Source: Apostichopus japonicus (taxonomy: Eukaryota > Echinodermata > Holothuroidea > Aspidochirotida > Stichopodidae). Taken from it: DNA of 64,000 nt. The notes below the pieces were generated by a model. It was given only the letters and a program-made list of their open reading frames with translations. It made no database searches and was not told the origin of the DNA. Shown in pieces: positions 1-58,700 of the stretch (within the stretch, counting starts at the first letter, position 1; every line of letters begins with the position of its first letter). Both the position numbers and the translations under genes were made by a program. The stretch is from contig NC_092571.1 in NCBI RefSeq assembly GCF_037975245.1, forward strand, positions 913,501 to 977,500, given 5' to 3'.

Positions 1-97
1 TTCAAAGTTACACTGAGCAAGGATTCAGGGTGTTGGCCTTAGCCTGGAGACAGCTAGACCCCAAAGTATCATGGCACCATGTTCACAAAATACCAAG
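1..97 (+). CDS. ATP13A2: ATP13A2 exon a (partial at window start)
   Basis: Reading frame 3 gives [20 protein letters not shown], the conserved segment that precedes the P domain hinge in P5B ATPases. The exon ends AAG before GTACAT, in phase 2. Its 5' end is cut by the window edge. The donor sequence is repeated many times in the following intron. Confidence 0.88.
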
Positions 98-3000
98 GTA
101 CATTACTGTTTATATAAACAAGTTACAAAGGTACATTATATACTTAATATAGGGCAATAGGGTTATGTAAATGACCCAGTGCATCTTCATAACAACAAGG
201 TACAATATTGCTATTTATATGGGGACAGTATGGTTAGGCAAATGTTCCAGTGCATCTTCATAGCAAATGGTACATCATTGAATTACATATGGGGGCAGTA
301 GGGTTAGTCGATTTTCGTGGTGTCTCTGCATAGTGACAAGGTACATTATATACTTTATATATAAGGGCAGAAGGGTTAGGCAAATGTTCCAGTGCATCTT
401 CATAGCAACAAGGTACATTATTGCTTGATATATGGGGACAGTATGGTTAGGCAAATGTTACAGTGCATCTTCATAGCAACAAGGTACATTATTGCTTGAT
501 ATATGGGGACAGTATGGTTAGGCAAATGTTACAGTGCATCTTCATAGCAACAAGGTACATTATTGCTTTATATATGGGGACAGTATGGTTAGGCAAATGT
601 TACAGTGCATCTTCATAGCAACAAGGTACATTATTGCTTTATATATGGGGACAGTATGGTTAGGCAAATGTTACAGTGCATCTTCATAGCAACAAGGTAC
701 ATTATTGCTTTATATATGGGGACAGTATGGTTAGGCAAATGTTACAGTGCATCTTCATAGCAACAAGGTACATTATTGCTTTATATATGGGGACAGTATG
801 GTTAGGCAAATGTTGCAGTGCATCTTCATAGCAACAAGGTACATTATTGCTTTATATATGGGGACAGTATGGTTAGGCAAATGTTGCAGTGCATCTTCAT
901 AGCAACAAGGTACATTATTGCTTTATATATGGGGACAGTATGGTTAGGCAAATGTCCCAGTGCCTCTTCATAGTGGTAAGGTACCAGCTAGATATTTTAG
1001 TATAGCTGCATTCCAAACCAAAACTTTGTGAGATATTCAACTCCTATATTGTTTTTCTGCTCTCAGGGGGGACCTTGAAGCTAATCTAACATTCTTAGGT
1101 CTACTAGTGCTGCAAAATGCTTTGAAGAGCGCCACCACTCCTGTCATAGCTGAGCTCCACAACGCCAATATACGCACAGTAATGGTAACAGGTTAGTAGA
1201 AAGAGCATTTGAAAGTTAGTAAAAACCTTAGTCTTTTAATAGTCCTGACTTGATCCTTATTCCTTTCTCAACTTATTCCTTTATTTCAGTCCAGACTTAT
1301 TCCTTTATTCCAGTCAAGACCTGTTACTTTATTCCAGCCTAGTCATTTTACTTCTTTCCAGTCCTGACCTGTTACTTTATTCCAGTCCTGACCTGTTACT
1401 TTAGTCCAGTCCTGACCTGTAACTTTATTCCAGTCCTGACCTGTTACTTTAGTCCAGTCCAGACCTTTTACTTTATTCCAGTCCTGACCTGTTACTTTAG
1501 TCCAGTCCAGACCTGTTACTTTATTTGTCCTGACCTGTTACTTTAGTCCAGTCCAGGCCTGTTACTTTATTCCAGTCCAGACCTGTTCCTTTAGTCCAGT
1601 CCTGACCTGTTACTTTATTCCAGTCCAGACCTGTTCCTTTAGTCCAGACCTGTTACTTTAGTTCAGTCCAGACCTGTTACTTTATTCCAGTCCTGACCTG
1701 TTACTTTAGTCCAGTCCAGACCTGTTACTTTATTCCAGTCCTGACCTGTTACTTTAGTCCAGTCCAGACCTGTTACTTTATTCCAGTCCAGACCTGTTAC
1801 TTTAGTCCAGTCCAGACCTGTTACTTTAGTTCAGTCCAGACCTGTTACTTTATTCCAGTCCAGAACTGTTACTTTATTCCAGCCTAGTTGTATTACTTTA
1901 GTCCAGACCTGTTACTTTATTCCAGTCCAGACCTGTTGCTTTATTCCAGTCCAGACCTGTTACTTTATTCCAACCTAGTCAATTTACTTTAGTCCAGTCC
2001 AGACCTGTTCCTTTATTCCAGTCCAGACCTGTTCCTTTATTCCAGTCCAGACCTGTTCCTTTATTCCAACCTAGTCAATTTACTTTAGTCCAGTCCAGAC
2101 CTGTTCATTTATTCCAGCCCAGACCTGTTCCTTTATTCCATCCCAGACCTGTTCCTTTTATTCCAGCCCAGACCTGTTCCTGTATTCCAGTTTAGACTAG
2201 AGATCACTGGGATCACAGTCCGAGCAAACTGGTATAAATGTTATCATGTAAACGTATATCACATACCACCATCATCATCATCATCTTCTATGAAAATATT
2301 GAAATGTGTGACGACATCTCCTCTCTGATAACTGAATACAAGTGTAAGTTAACTTGATGTTTGATTGTGTTTGTTCTTAGGTGACAACATGCTGACAGCT
2401 GTGAGTGTAGCTCAGGAGTGTAGAATGATTCCTACATCATCAAGAGTCATCACGGTAAATGCTCTGAAACCCTCTGAAGATTCACCAGCCACCATTCAGT
2501 GGATCAGCAATGAAACCGATAGTCTACCTGATAGAAATATCCAGTCACATAATTACCAAGTTCCTGTAAGTTTGAGAAGTATGAATTAATGGTATGGAAG
2601 ATAGTATGACCATTGGTAGTATGAAGTGTATCATTAATGGACAGGACAGTATGAACAGCATAGGTATAGCACTATGCTTTAGACTTAGAATGAATAATGT
2701 AATGTATAACACCAGGGAGTAACTTCAGTATGAGCAGATATGAAGTAAAATGTCATGGTGTCACAGTAAGTATAAACAGCATGAAGTATGGAATGAATAA
2801 TGTAATGTATAACACCAGGGAATAACCTCAGTATGAGCAGATGTGAAGTAAAATGTCATGGTGTCACCGTAAGTATAAACAGCATGAAGTATGGAATGAA
2901 ACATGTAATGTATAACACCAGGGAATAACCTCAGTTTGAGCAGATATTAGTGTTGCGCCGATAATCGTTTTCAATATCGGTATCGGCCGATATTTGCAAT

Positions 3001-19742: not shown

Positions 19743-27750
<8,008 letters not shown>

Positions 27751-43740: not shown

Positions 43741-46700
43741 GTGAGAAAAGTAACGTAGGCCTAAGTTAGGCCCTAACTTAAGTTAGGCCTAGGCTACGCT
43801 AGGTTGGGTCCTCCTCTTAATAATAATGTAGCCTAGACGGTTGGCCTAACTTAGCCTAGGACTAAGCTAGCCTGCACTTAAAGCAAGTTAAGGTGACAAA
43901 TATTAGTACTTTAAGGAAATATACCCCAACAAAAAGAATTCTTCAATATTCAGTTAAGTTTCAGTTAATTTTCTCTGTGTATCCTCCAACTTCCAACTTC
44001 CAAGGAGGTAAAAGAGACACAAATGCATTAACAAATAGAGATACGGATGTGGCACCAGCACTACAGTAAGCACTAGATATTGATGTGACAAAAACTTACG
44101 AGAAGGCTTTTATTATCTAAGCACAAAACTGACTTAAATTGTGAATAACAACTTTACACTTCGATTGAAAAAGATCATGCATATTAATCGCACTGGGTCT
44201 TGTTCTGAAATTTGGTTTTAAGTAAGGCCGTGGCTATTCTTACGACTAGTCGTAACAATTATTTATAAACTATTCTTACGACAAAGGCGAATTCAAGCGC
44301 AGTAAAGTAAATAAAGCAACTGCGCATGTAGTAGGGGTAACCCTAACTTTAACCCTAAACCCCAATCCTAACACTAACCCTAACCGGAAATTATTGTTAC
44401 TCCTGGTCGTAAAAAATAGTACTCCTGTCATAAAAATAGCAACTGCGCATGCGTTATCGGAAATTATTCTTACGAACAGTCGTAAGAATAGCCACTTTGT
44501 TTAAGTAAAGATTTCTTTCTTTCTTAAAGGCCGGGCACTCAAAAATGTAATGAAATTCATCACCTAATTTATTAAGTACGTTACATAAATTGCATATCCC
44601 ATCATGAAACACAATATCTTGGTATCTTCCAGAAATAATCGGGATATTAGTATTGCAGCAACGATATTTACTCCAATAGTTAAGGTTCCGGAAATAGAGG
44701 GTTTTCAAATACTTTTCATATTCAAGGTTGGTCTTGAACATCCTTTGCACTTTAAAATGCGAATTACTATTTACATTGGCAAGTCACTCCTGTTTATACG
44801 TGTCACCTAGTCAGTGGCGGAGCTAGAGGTATTGGTAAAGGGGGGCGAGAATGGTCTGTAGGGGCGCTTCCGACACTATCTAAGCGGAGCGCCACCACGG
44901 GTTGGCGCGGAGCGTACTGGAATTTTTGAGTAAAGATACTCCCTAGATCGCCGGAAATGACCCTTTCCAGGCCTTGCTAATTTGCAGATAAACGAAGAAT
45001 AAATAGGTGTCATCGCCAAAAAAATGTGACAAATGTCAATATGTAGATGAGAGCACAATAAAAAAGTCAATAATCCCGAATAAGTTAAAAGTGGTAATAA
45101 GCTGAAAAGGGCGCCAGCAGTCCAATTGAGTCCGTCAGGGGGGGCATACTGTATGGACGCTCCGCCACTGCACCTAGTCTTAGTTTAATTGCTCTACTTA
45201 ACCATGCCTGGGATATAATAGGGTCAGAAGAATAATGAGCTTGGCTGGCCCCGTACAGTAGGTTCCACACATACGACATTTCGGCTTTGTCAAGAATACT
45301 TAATATTTTACTTAACCAAGGAGATGAATAAAATAAATACTTTGATCATGGAGAGCCCTAAAGAACTTGTACATCATATGCGATAATTTATACCCACTGC
45401 TATTTACACTGCTACACAAAAAATTAACCATTCTTGCCTCGATTGTATTGATCAGCATGTGACGTCCCAAGTCACCATATGCCATGCAATTCGAGTATAC
45501 TTGTTAAGTTTAAGAATTTGTTTACAGAATAATTAATGAATAGCTTCAACTTGGCTAAAATTATCAACGTCCCAGATATCACATCCATAGAGCAGAACAG
45601 GAAGAACCAGTTGATCAAACAGCTCAACTTTTAAATCTGATGCCCGTGATGGGAGCTGTAGGCTATAAGATTTACACAATAGGCTGTATAGGGCACATCT
45701 AGCTTGGTTCACTCGTTTATTAACAGCCTTTGTGAATCTTCTATTATAGTTAAAAGTACAACCCAGATAATAATCATCAATGATTTCAACTGTAGAACCC
45801 CTCAAGTATCGCTAACCACAAGTATATTTGTGAATAATGCTATTTAATATTGTTATTGATTATTGCTAACCCTAATTGTTCAATGGGGCATTTGCACTGT
45901 TAGGCTTGAAAGGGTATAGAGTTGCATTCATGCAAGTTACAAAATCTTTTCAGAGATCACTAAACACCATCATAGGGGGTAAAACATTGTGTGTGTTGAT
46001 TTTGAAAAGTAATTTTAGGATATAACATTATGCTTAAGTATGCCCTGTACTAGTATAGACCGAGGGGGTTCTAGGGTGAATGGGTATTGACTGGGTATCT
46101 GGAGGGACCGAAATGGATGTGAGCTGGACCTGCCACATAGAATGGTTATGTATCTTTGTTTAGTTTCATATTTAAATCAAATTTGAAATATAATAAGATA
46201 TTTGGTAATATGATTTTAATGAACATCACGTATACTTTATAGCTCAAATACTTCAACATTATTCCTGTCCTGTTTAGATAAGGAATATGAGCTGCTTGTC
46301 GTCACTGTAGCAACAGAAGAGACTGATGGTTTCAAAAGGTTTTTAAGATCAACTGACAAATATGATGTTAATGTAAAGGTGAGTCTACATGTTAAAAATG
46401 AATGTTTAATGGTTCTAATTCATGTAAAAATATCAGTGTTGATGTTTGTTCTATACAGTTAACATACATTCTTAAAATCTGTTGAAATCAGTGGACAGAA
46501 CTGAAGAAATGGTCCCTGTATTGCATAACTCAAATTTGTAGTTTTATTCTCAATGTTTGTACAAGGAATACTCTTCTCTTAACTTTAAGTAATTCACACA
46601 ATGAAACAAATTTGACACATTTGTTAGTATGTGTCTACTGGTCACTGTCTGTTGTTGTCATGGAAACACAAATCAGGTTTTTGGTAAATAGCAAATTACA

Positions 46701-55700: not shown

Positions 55701-58700
55701 TTTGTCAACAACGACGGTCATCCCAGCTTATGAAAGAAGTGAAGGGGAGGCCAGAGATGAAGCTCTGTGAGTAACCTTCCTTTAAACTTGAGACCTTTTG
55801 CTTTTTGTCCAGGACTAATAAATGAATAAGTTGAAGGTTTACAGTCTTGTTCGAGGCCAAGGCCATCTCACAGGACTTTAAAACACTTCAACCCCTGGTC
55901 ATTGGTAACTTGTCATACTCACACACTAAAGTGTGCACAATTCAAACAATCCCTCCTGGAGCACAACAGTGCACCACATCTACGTGTCCCCTGGGGGACT
56001 TCCCATAGGGTGCAGCCACAAACTCGCGCACACAACTATATTTACAAGTTACCTCGCAAGTGCCCATTTATATACTTGGGTGAAGAGAGGCAATGCAGAT
56101 TAAGTGCCTTGCCCAAGGACATGACGTAATGATCTGGTTAGGACTTGAACCTGCAAACCATTGCATTAACCACTGGACCACCACACTCTCAGGATGAGTC
56201 CTAGAACTGTTTAGTCAAGTTTCTTCTATTAATCTGTAATCCTTGATCCTTCCTTGCAGGAAGTGAGGTAGCATGGAGATACTATTCTTCTGTACCCATG
56301 TTACCACTCATGTTATTGGTAGATATTTAAGCAAACACCGACTGTGTGTAGTGACAGTCCATATCATATTCAACCTCAGTGTGCAGTGAATGTACTTTAA
56401 GGTTTGAAACCCATCATCTGGAAGGTTGCAGGCTCAATTCCCGGCCTAGTCAGTGTGGGGTCAGTTGTATTTGAAAATTTAATAAGTGCAAATCAATATT
56501 TTGAGTGTCTGCAATGATCTTCCAATATGATTCCAATATAATAGTACAATATCTATGATTCCTCTCATGTCAAGCCTAAAAGTAAAACTGCCTCAACTTT
56601 TGCCATATTGATATTTGAATGCTAAGTGTAAGATAATCTTTACCTTTCAAGACTAAATTTACTTTATTATTATGATTATTGATAGGACAGTAACAACAGT
56701 TTATTATATCAGGTCATTTACCTTTCACTATGTATTTTTTCTTCTGTTTTTATTTTTGTCAGGAATCTTTGTAACGAGGTAGAATGTGATTATCACTTTG
56801 TGATTGATTCTAATGTCCGGCTCTACAATCCTGAAATACTCAAACGCCTTATCGAACAAAACAAGTGAGTTTACTTTTCATTCAACCTTCTGTAAGAATT
56901 TCAGAATAACATAAAGTGTTCCTGAGTGTTTCATATTGTCTTGGTAAAGATATTTATCAACAAACCAAGTATTATCTATAAGTTCCTAACAATACATGTG
57001 GCTTTCACCTTGCAGGAAGACTTTACTTTTTCACTGCAAAACTTCTTTCCTTGAGTCGTTGCTTTACTTTCCTGTTTAGAAAATTGTCAAGCATGCTTTC
57101 CCCTGGGGATGGAAGAGGTAGCAGTAGGGGGGGGGGGTAGGGAAAGGTGGATTGGAAAAAGGGCACAAGGGAAGTGGTATAGTAGAACAAGCTATAAGAG
57201 ACCAGTGACACCTAATTTATGTCTATGCTGTACAGAGACTTGTAAGAGACCAGTGACACCTAATTTATGTCTATGCTATACATAGACGTGTAAGAGACCA
57301 GTGACACCTAATTTATGTCTATGCTATACATAGACGTGTAAGAGACCAGTGACACCTAATTTATGTCTAATGCTATACAGAGACTAGTTAGAGACCAGTG
57401 ACACCTAATTTATGTCTTTGCTATACATAGACGTGTAAGAGACCAGTGACACCTAATTTATGTCTATGCTATACATAGACGTGTAAGAGACCAGTGACAC
57501 CTAATTTATGTCTTTGCTATACATAGACGTGTAAGAGACCAGTGACACCTAATTTATGTCTATGCTATACAGAGACTAGTTAGAGACCAGTGACACCTAA
57601 TTTATGTCTTTGCTATACATAGACGTGTAAGAGACCAGTGACACCTAATTTATGTCTATGCTATACATAGACGTGTAAGAGACCAGTGACACCTAATTTA
57701 TGTCTATGCTATACATAGACGTGTAAGAGACCAGTGACACCTAATTTATGTCTATGCTATACATAGACGTGTAAGAGACCAGTGACACCTAATTTATGTC
57801 TATGCTATACATAGACGTGTAAGAGACCAGTGACACCTAATTTATGTCTATGCTATACATAGACGTGTAAGAGACCATTGACACCTAATTTATTTTACAT
57901 GAGATATTTGATTCCTAACTTTCTTCTTTGATTCCTCTGTTTTTATTCAGGCCTGTTATTGCACCCATGGTAAATATTCCAGACAAACTCTGGAGTAACT
58001 TTTGGGGTGAGGTCAATTTGGAAGGGTACTACGCTAGGTCAGACGATTACGTCGACATCGTCAAAGGAAACAGGAAGTAAGTAATTGGATCATTTTAAGA
58101 AACCAGCAATGTGGCCGAGACTGATTTGAACAAGAGTTTGTTATGAGTGAACATTAAATTTTTGAGCTAAGATTTAGAATGAAGTAAAATTTAGCTGTAT
58201 CGTGATTATTTTAATAATGAATAGAAGTAACTTTCAGATTAAGCAAATAAATTTGCCCTGAATATAGAAAAAAGATTTTTGAAAGAGCCAAATGAAGTTT
58301 GGCTAGAGCATTATTTGTTAGAGGTTTTGGGATTTTATGGTAGCAGGATCTTCTGCATTAGAGACCTAATGTTAATTTTTTGCTCGCACATTACCCTGTG
58401 TGAGGTTATGGAGTTCCATATTTCAAAAATGTTTACAGACTTTGTGTTTTACTATTTCCATTGAAAATTGTCCTTTTTGCTCATGAGAGATCATGAAATG
58501 ATGAAACAAAATTATTTATTTTAAATTTTAATAGTTCTAAGAACAAATTGTTTATAGTATCTGCACAGGTTACCATTGTTTATTTCTGTATCAATTGGAG
58601 TTGGCCTAGCCTAAATTCGATGTAGGCTTAATGCTGAATGTGCGTACTACACGAAAATGGGTCACAAACATAAGGGATAGCAATAATACTTCGGAATACA

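Follow-up and report, generated by a model that had tools for sequence, protein, structure and literature searches.

In the 64,000-nucleotide window analyzed here (C11:913501-977500 of the echinoderm Apostichopus japonicus), the 5' splice site (donor) of an exon of an ATP13A2-like gene adjoins a 71-bp minisatellite, and the units of this array copy the exon-intron junction beyond the donor consensus. In all likelihood, the array is a minisatellite of the mirage type known from amphioxus, which would have arisen by chance duplication of the junction and would be tolerated because splicing keeps to copy 1, the donor nearest the exon. The genome searched for comparison comprised 671.6 Mb in 35 contigs. 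The features of the locus, all on the plus strand, are listed below in window coordinates; slashes mark sequence boundaries, and U1 energies were computed with 11 bases of U1.

1-97, +: 3' part of the ATP13A2-like exon, ending CCAAG in phase 2 (PDB match)
95-103, +: authentic donor AAG/GTACAT, U1 duplex -5.6 kcal/mol, with an in-frame protein join to the exon at 1067
95-126, +: truncated first repeat copy of 32 bp, holding the authentic donor (22/24 columns in common with the unit)
127-977, +: 71-bp minisatellite with 12 full units (Tandem Repeats Finder [TRF] and unit alignment)
131-132, +: GT of the nearest decoy donor, at +33 nt (by hand from the sequence and the read-through)
200-911, +: further decoy GTs at 200, 270, 341, 413, 484, 555, 626, 697, 768, 839, and 910
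976-977, +: donor-like GT of GTG/GTAAGGTA, U1 pairing -8.5, better than the real donor
978-984, +: AAGGTAC closing the array, identical to the heptamer that spans the exon end (95-101)
1065-1191, +: acceptor AG (1065-1066) and coding exon 1067-1191 (frame and homology)

The junction and the 71-bp array

The window opens with the 3' portion of a 121-nt exon (C11:913477-913597), whose end reads CCAAG/GTACATTACTG at 93-108, with the donor GT at 98 and AAGGTACATTA at the start of the intron; the preliminary description of this DNA had likewise placed CCAAG before the donor. The next exon begins at 1067 after ctctcag and the reading frame continues across the join, the best PDB match for the two joined exon translations being the polyamine-transporting ATPase 13A2 (E = 1.4e-11). 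TRF called the array as 71 bp × 11.9 copies at 128-973, with divergent units at 127-409 and near-identical ones at 410-977. The first copy is a truncated stub of 32 bp, so the TRF call begins only at 128, 30 bases past the exon end, and the part of the boundary covered by the array comprises 4 exon bases and the first ∼20 intron columns. The earlier statement that the array begins exactly at the exon end therefore holds for the position, but the copy found there is the stub and not a full unit.

Alignment of the junction with the tandem unit revealed CAAGGTACATTA[C/T]TG-TTTATATA in common (22 of 24 columns, local score 36), and the matched columns include the non-consensus GTACATTA. The intronic stub alone (98-126) scored 28 against the unit, a score reached by none of 17,992 background stretches (29 bases each, taken from the window after position 1000 on both strands with a step of 7; best score, 27) and by none of 20,000 shuffles. 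Considering that the donor regions of 11 further exons in this gene scored 10 to 16 against the unit, compared with 36 here (a twelfth donor, not placed by the script, was left out), the similarity extends beyond the generic donor consensus; the junction itself was copied. The exonic share of the match is the last 4 bases, CAAG. Moreover, the plus strand holds 11 occurrences of the donor 9-mer AAGGTACAT, of which one lies at the exon and the others in 10 decoys, and neither strand has any after position 1000; two further decoys, in units 197 and 266, carry a variant donor. A genome search with the 71-bp unit returned at least 11 matches, all of them inside this array. As in the amphioxus mirages, the locus thus holds a tandem repeat with alignable units (71 bp × 11.9) whose copies carry a splice signal (10 decoys with the identical 9-mer).

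These results confirm the observation made in the preliminary description, namely, that a minisatellite has copied an authentic 5' splice site about a dozen times (10 identical 9-mers and two variants) with the real donor region as its first unit, and the alignment that it had proposed as a check was not limited to the donor consensus. Its interpretation is supported in part. For example, every unit had been said to carry ACAAG before the donor, and ACAAG/GTACATTATTG was found in 8 of the 12 full units (starts 410-907), with the units at 127, 197, 266, and 338 differing. The heptamer AAGGTAC at both borders of the array is a candidate microhomology that may have served in the founding duplication; Haber and Louis are said to have proposed in 1998 that minisatellites are born between short direct repeats. 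A match between the exon and the 3' flank of the array was dropped, since 641 of 5000 shuffles matched it as well.

The exon has minisatellites on either side, as a 52-bp array (C11:913206-913449), with units containing TTATTCTCACAG, stops ∼27 bp ahead of it. An acceptor-side copy in this array was considered and dropped, with just 11 of 13 columns matching.

Sister arrays in the gene and the genome

A stronger case than the 71-bp array is found in the same gene at C11:903765-904403, where an ATP13A2 exon further upstream has its real donor in copy 1 of a 40 bp × 16 array. This exon, ending SVKAVIIRT (C11:903770), reads ATCATCAGAACAG/GTGAGTACTATAACTATAAAAACAACAAGAGATAAGAACAG/GTGAGT, its array has units with AGAACAG/GTGAGTA, and 15 of the 16 units carry the full CAGGTGAGT (U1, -13.6). 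With splicing at copy 1, the joined product reads RT-GFLTMKGELVRS, and its alignment to ATP13A2 runs through the join (E = 1.2e-22).

To place these two arrays in a genomic context, 30 donor-motif arrays were compiled, consisting of 10 loci among the ∼100 AGGTRAGT-triple matches listed and every further locus obtained with CAGGTGAGT, CAGGTAAGT, and AAGGTAAGT; two adjoining blocks at C1:4.70 Mb were counted as one locus, AAGGTGAGT triples were not searched for separately, and the reading covered only the flank 5' of the motif. The 12 controls were drawn from 15 loci among the shuffled-motif matches listed, leaving out C15 (also a donor-motif array) and two C1 loci that belong to the same longer satellite. 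In 10 of the 30 donor-motif arrays, the first motif copy coincided with the donor of an exon that follows an acceptor and has an open frame, compared with none of the 12 controls (Fisher P = 0.04; P = 0.13 if control L058 is counted as starting at a donor). Six of these 10 exons are supported by homology, as follows:

Saf4/Yju2: Pfam, E = 2.8e-12
Glycosyl transferase family 21: Pfam, E = 9.3e-11
Protein-tyrosine phosphatase: Pfam, E = 6.2e-10
Acyl-CoA oxidase: PDB, E = 1.6e-12
Serine palmitoyltransferase 1: PDB, E = 1.1e-5
ATP13A2: E = 1.2e-22 across the join (the 40-bp array)

The other four (C1:3939066, C2:23925275, C2:13555057, and C21:18254742) have an acceptor and an open frame only; they had no Pfam match, C2:23925275 also had no PDB match, and the last two frames, of ∼20 residues, may be open by chance. 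Of the 11 arrays measured (these 10 and the 71-bp array), TRF placed the start of 8 within the exon, by 4 to 35 bases, and that of the other 3, the 71-bp array included, 9 to 30 bases beyond it.

Donor-motif triples were not clearly commoner than control triples genome-wide, the counts being raw overlapping matches and not arrays. AGGTRAGT triples numbered 588+388, versus 501+288 for the reversed pattern, 503+273 for the shuffled motif GATGRGTA, and 207+307 for the reverse of the latter; the corresponding counts against controls were 21+33 versus 4+55 for CAGGTGAGT, 24+5 versus 19+20 for CAGGTAAGT, and 16+27 versus 20+15 for AAGGTAAGT. Nor was the single 9-mer MAGGTRAGT in excess (26,642, versus 31,450 for its reverse). 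A preference of arrays for exon ends was accordingly not retained, given the weak contrast and the absence of a clear motif excess. For the same reasons, and in a genome rich in minisatellites, we read the recurrence of such arrays as the chance birth of minisatellites at numerous sites, in some cases at donors, where they are tolerated.

Several individual loci deserve mention. Control L058 (C1:9969800-9971050) starts ∼85 bp past a likely exon end, ...GKENVYNG/GTGAGTAG, with donor-like units such as GGTGAGTAATTGTGATGAGG, and may be a decayed donor-born array. The count leaves out the donor-motif array C1:4704988, which begins ∼90 bp downstream of a likely exon end, as well as C2:6511341 and C3:233617, two possible further donor-start cases. 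At C2:23925275-23926561, a 51 bp × 28 array at an open exon end holds 35 exon bases and has CAGGTGAGT intact in all 28 aligned copies; a coding role for it was rejected, as the offsets put the copies out of frame and a stop follows at 246 nt.

Other minisatellites were observed in the same gene and window. The next intron contains a 24 bp × 38.5 array (1279-2191) with an acceptor-like TTTATTCCAG in its unit, and another intron of the ATP13A2-like gene holds a 2.7-kb array of 65 bp × 42 (C11:906958-909697). Further large arrays lie at 22484-23833 (56 bp × 24) and 57195-57893 (48 bp × 14.5), the former near a minus-strand gene (20368-21824) which we take to be G-protein beta-like. Open frames on the minus strand at 44454-45811 presumably correspond to reverse-transcriptase fragments of a long interspersed nuclear element.

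Strength and predicted use of the decoys

Among the 13 donors of the gene that could be placed clearly, the real donor of the 71-bp array has the weakest U1 pairing, at -5.6 kcal/mol, compared with -6.5 to -13.6 for the rest; two donors placed with less certainty gave -6.8 and -5.4. Most decoys share its 9-mer and equal its U1 duplex energy, in keeping with the earlier claim that they are as good as the real donor, and the site GTG/GTAAGG at 976 pairs with U1 more strongly. The consequences of decoy use had been described as up to hundreds of added residues or a stop. Read-through from 98 reaches a TAG starting 52 nt past the exon end, so decoy use cannot add hundreds of residues, and the stop is what stands of that description. 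The first decoy (GT 131) adds 33 nt, that is, 11 residues in frame and free of stops; it was placed by hand, the computed decoy list starting at +102 because the aligner had merged the 32-bp stub with the next unit. As it is the only decoy that precedes the TAG, all those beyond it take in the stop. Across eight arrays, use of the first decoy would cause a frameshift or a stop in six and an in-frame insertion in two, namely, the 71-bp array and C2:23925275 (phase taken from the open frame).

Comparison of the decoys with their consensus in these eight arrays gave differences in 41 of 1444 cells in the donor columns and in 261 of 5476 cells in the other columns (P = 0.001). Seven of the eight arrays had been found by the donor motif, so this test leans toward intact decoys; within that bias, it gave no sign of extra decay of the decoys. 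In the 71-bp array, which was not found by the motif, 3 of 104 donor cells and 36 of 677 others differed (P = 0.47). The Yju2-like array points in the opposite direction to decoy retention, having lost the -1 G in 18 of 30 copies.

Origin, alternatives, and known systems

Under the favored reading, a tandem duplication would have taken in the last few exon bases together with the start of the intron, and the duplicated unit would then have multiplied in the intron through slippage or unequal exchange. The working donor would still be copy 1, chosen as the one that, in combination with the acceptor of this exon and its internal signals, defines the 121-nt exon, and the later copies would be intronic decoys. 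Judging from the frame, occasional use of copy 2 would insert the 11 residues, and use of later copies would bring in the stop codon, probably followed by nonsense-mediated decay; the array as such is most probably a neutral, tolerated feature. In two paralogues (C11:6.66 Mb and C11:10.05 Mb), the same phase-2 intron follows an exon end GAAAG/GTAAA, and tandem arrays do not begin until ∼260 bp or further into it. Since the paralogues share the intron without an array at its donor, the array is younger than the intron and its donor. The shared AAGGTAC at the two borders and the confinement of unit matches to this locus in the genome search also favor a local origin by duplication.

Several points weigh against this reading. 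The use of copy 1 is deduced from frame and homology. The shared stretch is short, with 4 exon bases against up to 35 in the sister arrays, and descent from the junction is therefore less certain here than in those arrays. In addition, three arrays (the 71-bp one and two others, 16 and 9 bases off) start by TRF after the exon end, and divergence in the decoys is, if anything, lower in the donor columns than elsewhere (in the biased test), a pattern not required of an array that is simply tolerated.

The resemblance could instead be that of an unrelated intronic minisatellite which happens to lie next to the exon and shares with it only the donor consensus. With an exonic match of just 4 bases, in a gene whose introns are full of minisatellites, such a coincidence is a natural thought, but it is largely refuted and very improbable, given that the 22 of 24 matching columns include GTACATTA, that the other 11 donors stay at 10 to 16 against 36, and that none of the 17,992 background stretches reached the score of the stub. 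An array that came first, as a dispersed repeat from which the exon drew its donor later, would suit the truncated and degenerate first copy at 95-126; it is hardly plausible, as the unit has no match elsewhere in the genome search and as the paralogues, with no array at the donor, have their intron at the same place and in the same phase, so the donor existed before the array. Tandem arrays are error-prone and the assembly alone was examined, yet an assembly artefact, the true allele having another copy number or none, is scarcely credible when the units at 127-409 are mutually different, unlike simple assembly stutter, and when the same genome holds other arrays of the same kind.

A functional alternative is that the decoys are used, giving regulated or copy-number-dependent isoforms as in human IFI6, either with 11 more residues through copy 2 or as decay-bound transcripts that set the dose of ATP13A2. 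Recursive splicing at the AAG/GT of the individual units would be a further, hypothetical use. The identical 9-mers and U1 energies of the decoys, the in-frame and stop-free first decoy only 33 nt away, the undecayed donor columns (in the biased test), and the IFI6 precedent of repeat units serving as donors (PMC4526556) are all in line with it. We nevertheless regard it as decidedly unlikely, considering that first-decoy use would bring a frameshift or stop in six of eight arrays, that use of copy 2 in human ABCA7 is low and independent of the length of its variable number tandem repeat (VNTR) (PMC5954066), and that the amphioxus mirages are reported to splice normally (PMC3087553 and PMC3902484).

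Compared with the mirage-type origin of this one array, a more general proposition is speculative and on the whole unlikely: that donor-spanning minisatellites are widespread and tolerated in this genome, that their repeated donors are kept, that the spliceosome ranks identical 5' splice sites by position alone, and that the arrays may even offer U1 additional places to bind in the intron. Such arrays offer many copies of one 5' splice site in the same local sequence and could separate position from strength without engineering. In vitro work with duplicated donors is reported to show an intron-proximal preference; if the exon-proximal copy always wins in this animal, this would argue for exon-side selection instead. 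Donor-spanning arrays may also be raw material for intron gain, following the model in PMC3087553.

Contig C35 of the same genome looks mitochondrial, with a full-length COX1 that, translated with table 9, has cytochrome c oxidase subunit 1 as its PDB match (E = 2.4e-186). In the aligned stretch, nine of 10 AAA codons fall on asparagine (residues 11, 55, 80, 98, 99, 163, 170, 214, and 216), and the tenth, at residue 2, where the start cannot be aligned, falls on phenylalanine; by eye, ATA falls mostly on isoleucine and AGA mostly on serine. AAA encodes asparagine in the echinoderm and flatworm mitochondrial code (table 9), and cephalochordates use table 5; given the closeness of the COX1 match, the code points most probably to an echinoderm. 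The frame after COX1 is presumably COX2. Several COX1 pieces at C29:14745-31219 perhaps represent a rearranged mitochondrial or a nuclear copy.

The phenomenon itself is known from amphioxus and human and is extended here to an echinoderm, with two arrays in one gene; a search by title and abstract, with most subscription journals outside its coverage, found no report of donor-spanning minisatellites in echinoderms. The question of how the first donor is picked, asked in the preliminary description, is a fair one that had already been raised by the amphioxus and ABCA7 cases. Turri is said to have described in 1995 a minisatellite with multiple splice donor sites in human IFI6 (6-16).

The amphioxus mirages are tandem repeats at exon-intron boundaries of Adh3, troponin C, the globins BflGb6 and BflGb9, and PGBD5 (PMC3087553 and PMC3902484), troponin C and PGBD5 having been added in the later paper (PMC3902484); their authors saw no apparent interference with regular splicing and proposed a route to new introns (PMC3087553). 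As in the present array, many copies carry splice signals and the edge units escape homogenization. Unlike it, the mirages belong to a cephalochordate and involve both the acceptor and the donor side, whereas the echinoderm array lies on the donor side only; length instability is reported for the mirages, and here one haplotype is available. Human repeats at exon-intron boundaries have also been discussed (PMC2812944). In IFI6, a minisatellite provides working donors (PMC4526556), so that both systems have, at the end of an exon, repeat units with the look or the function of donors, but the IFI6 units are used to make three mRNAs, whereas the donor-like units here are known from sequence. The 25-bp VNTR in intron 18 of ABCA7 starts with the donor of exon 18 (PMC5954066), its first two bases being the exon's own donor and the decoys lying downstream, as in the present array. 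Its unit is C-rich and present in ∼12 to 427 copies, compared with the 71-bp unit here. Retention of one unit (copy 2) accounts for 2 ± 1% of transcripts on one reading of two figures given, is independent of VNTR length, and is subject to decay; expansion of the VNTR raises the skipping of exon 19 (PMC5954066). Thus, copy 2 can be used in ABCA7 and is a candidate donor in the ATP13A2-like gene, with the difference that one-unit retention is out of frame in the former and copy 2 is in frame (+33 nt) in the latter.
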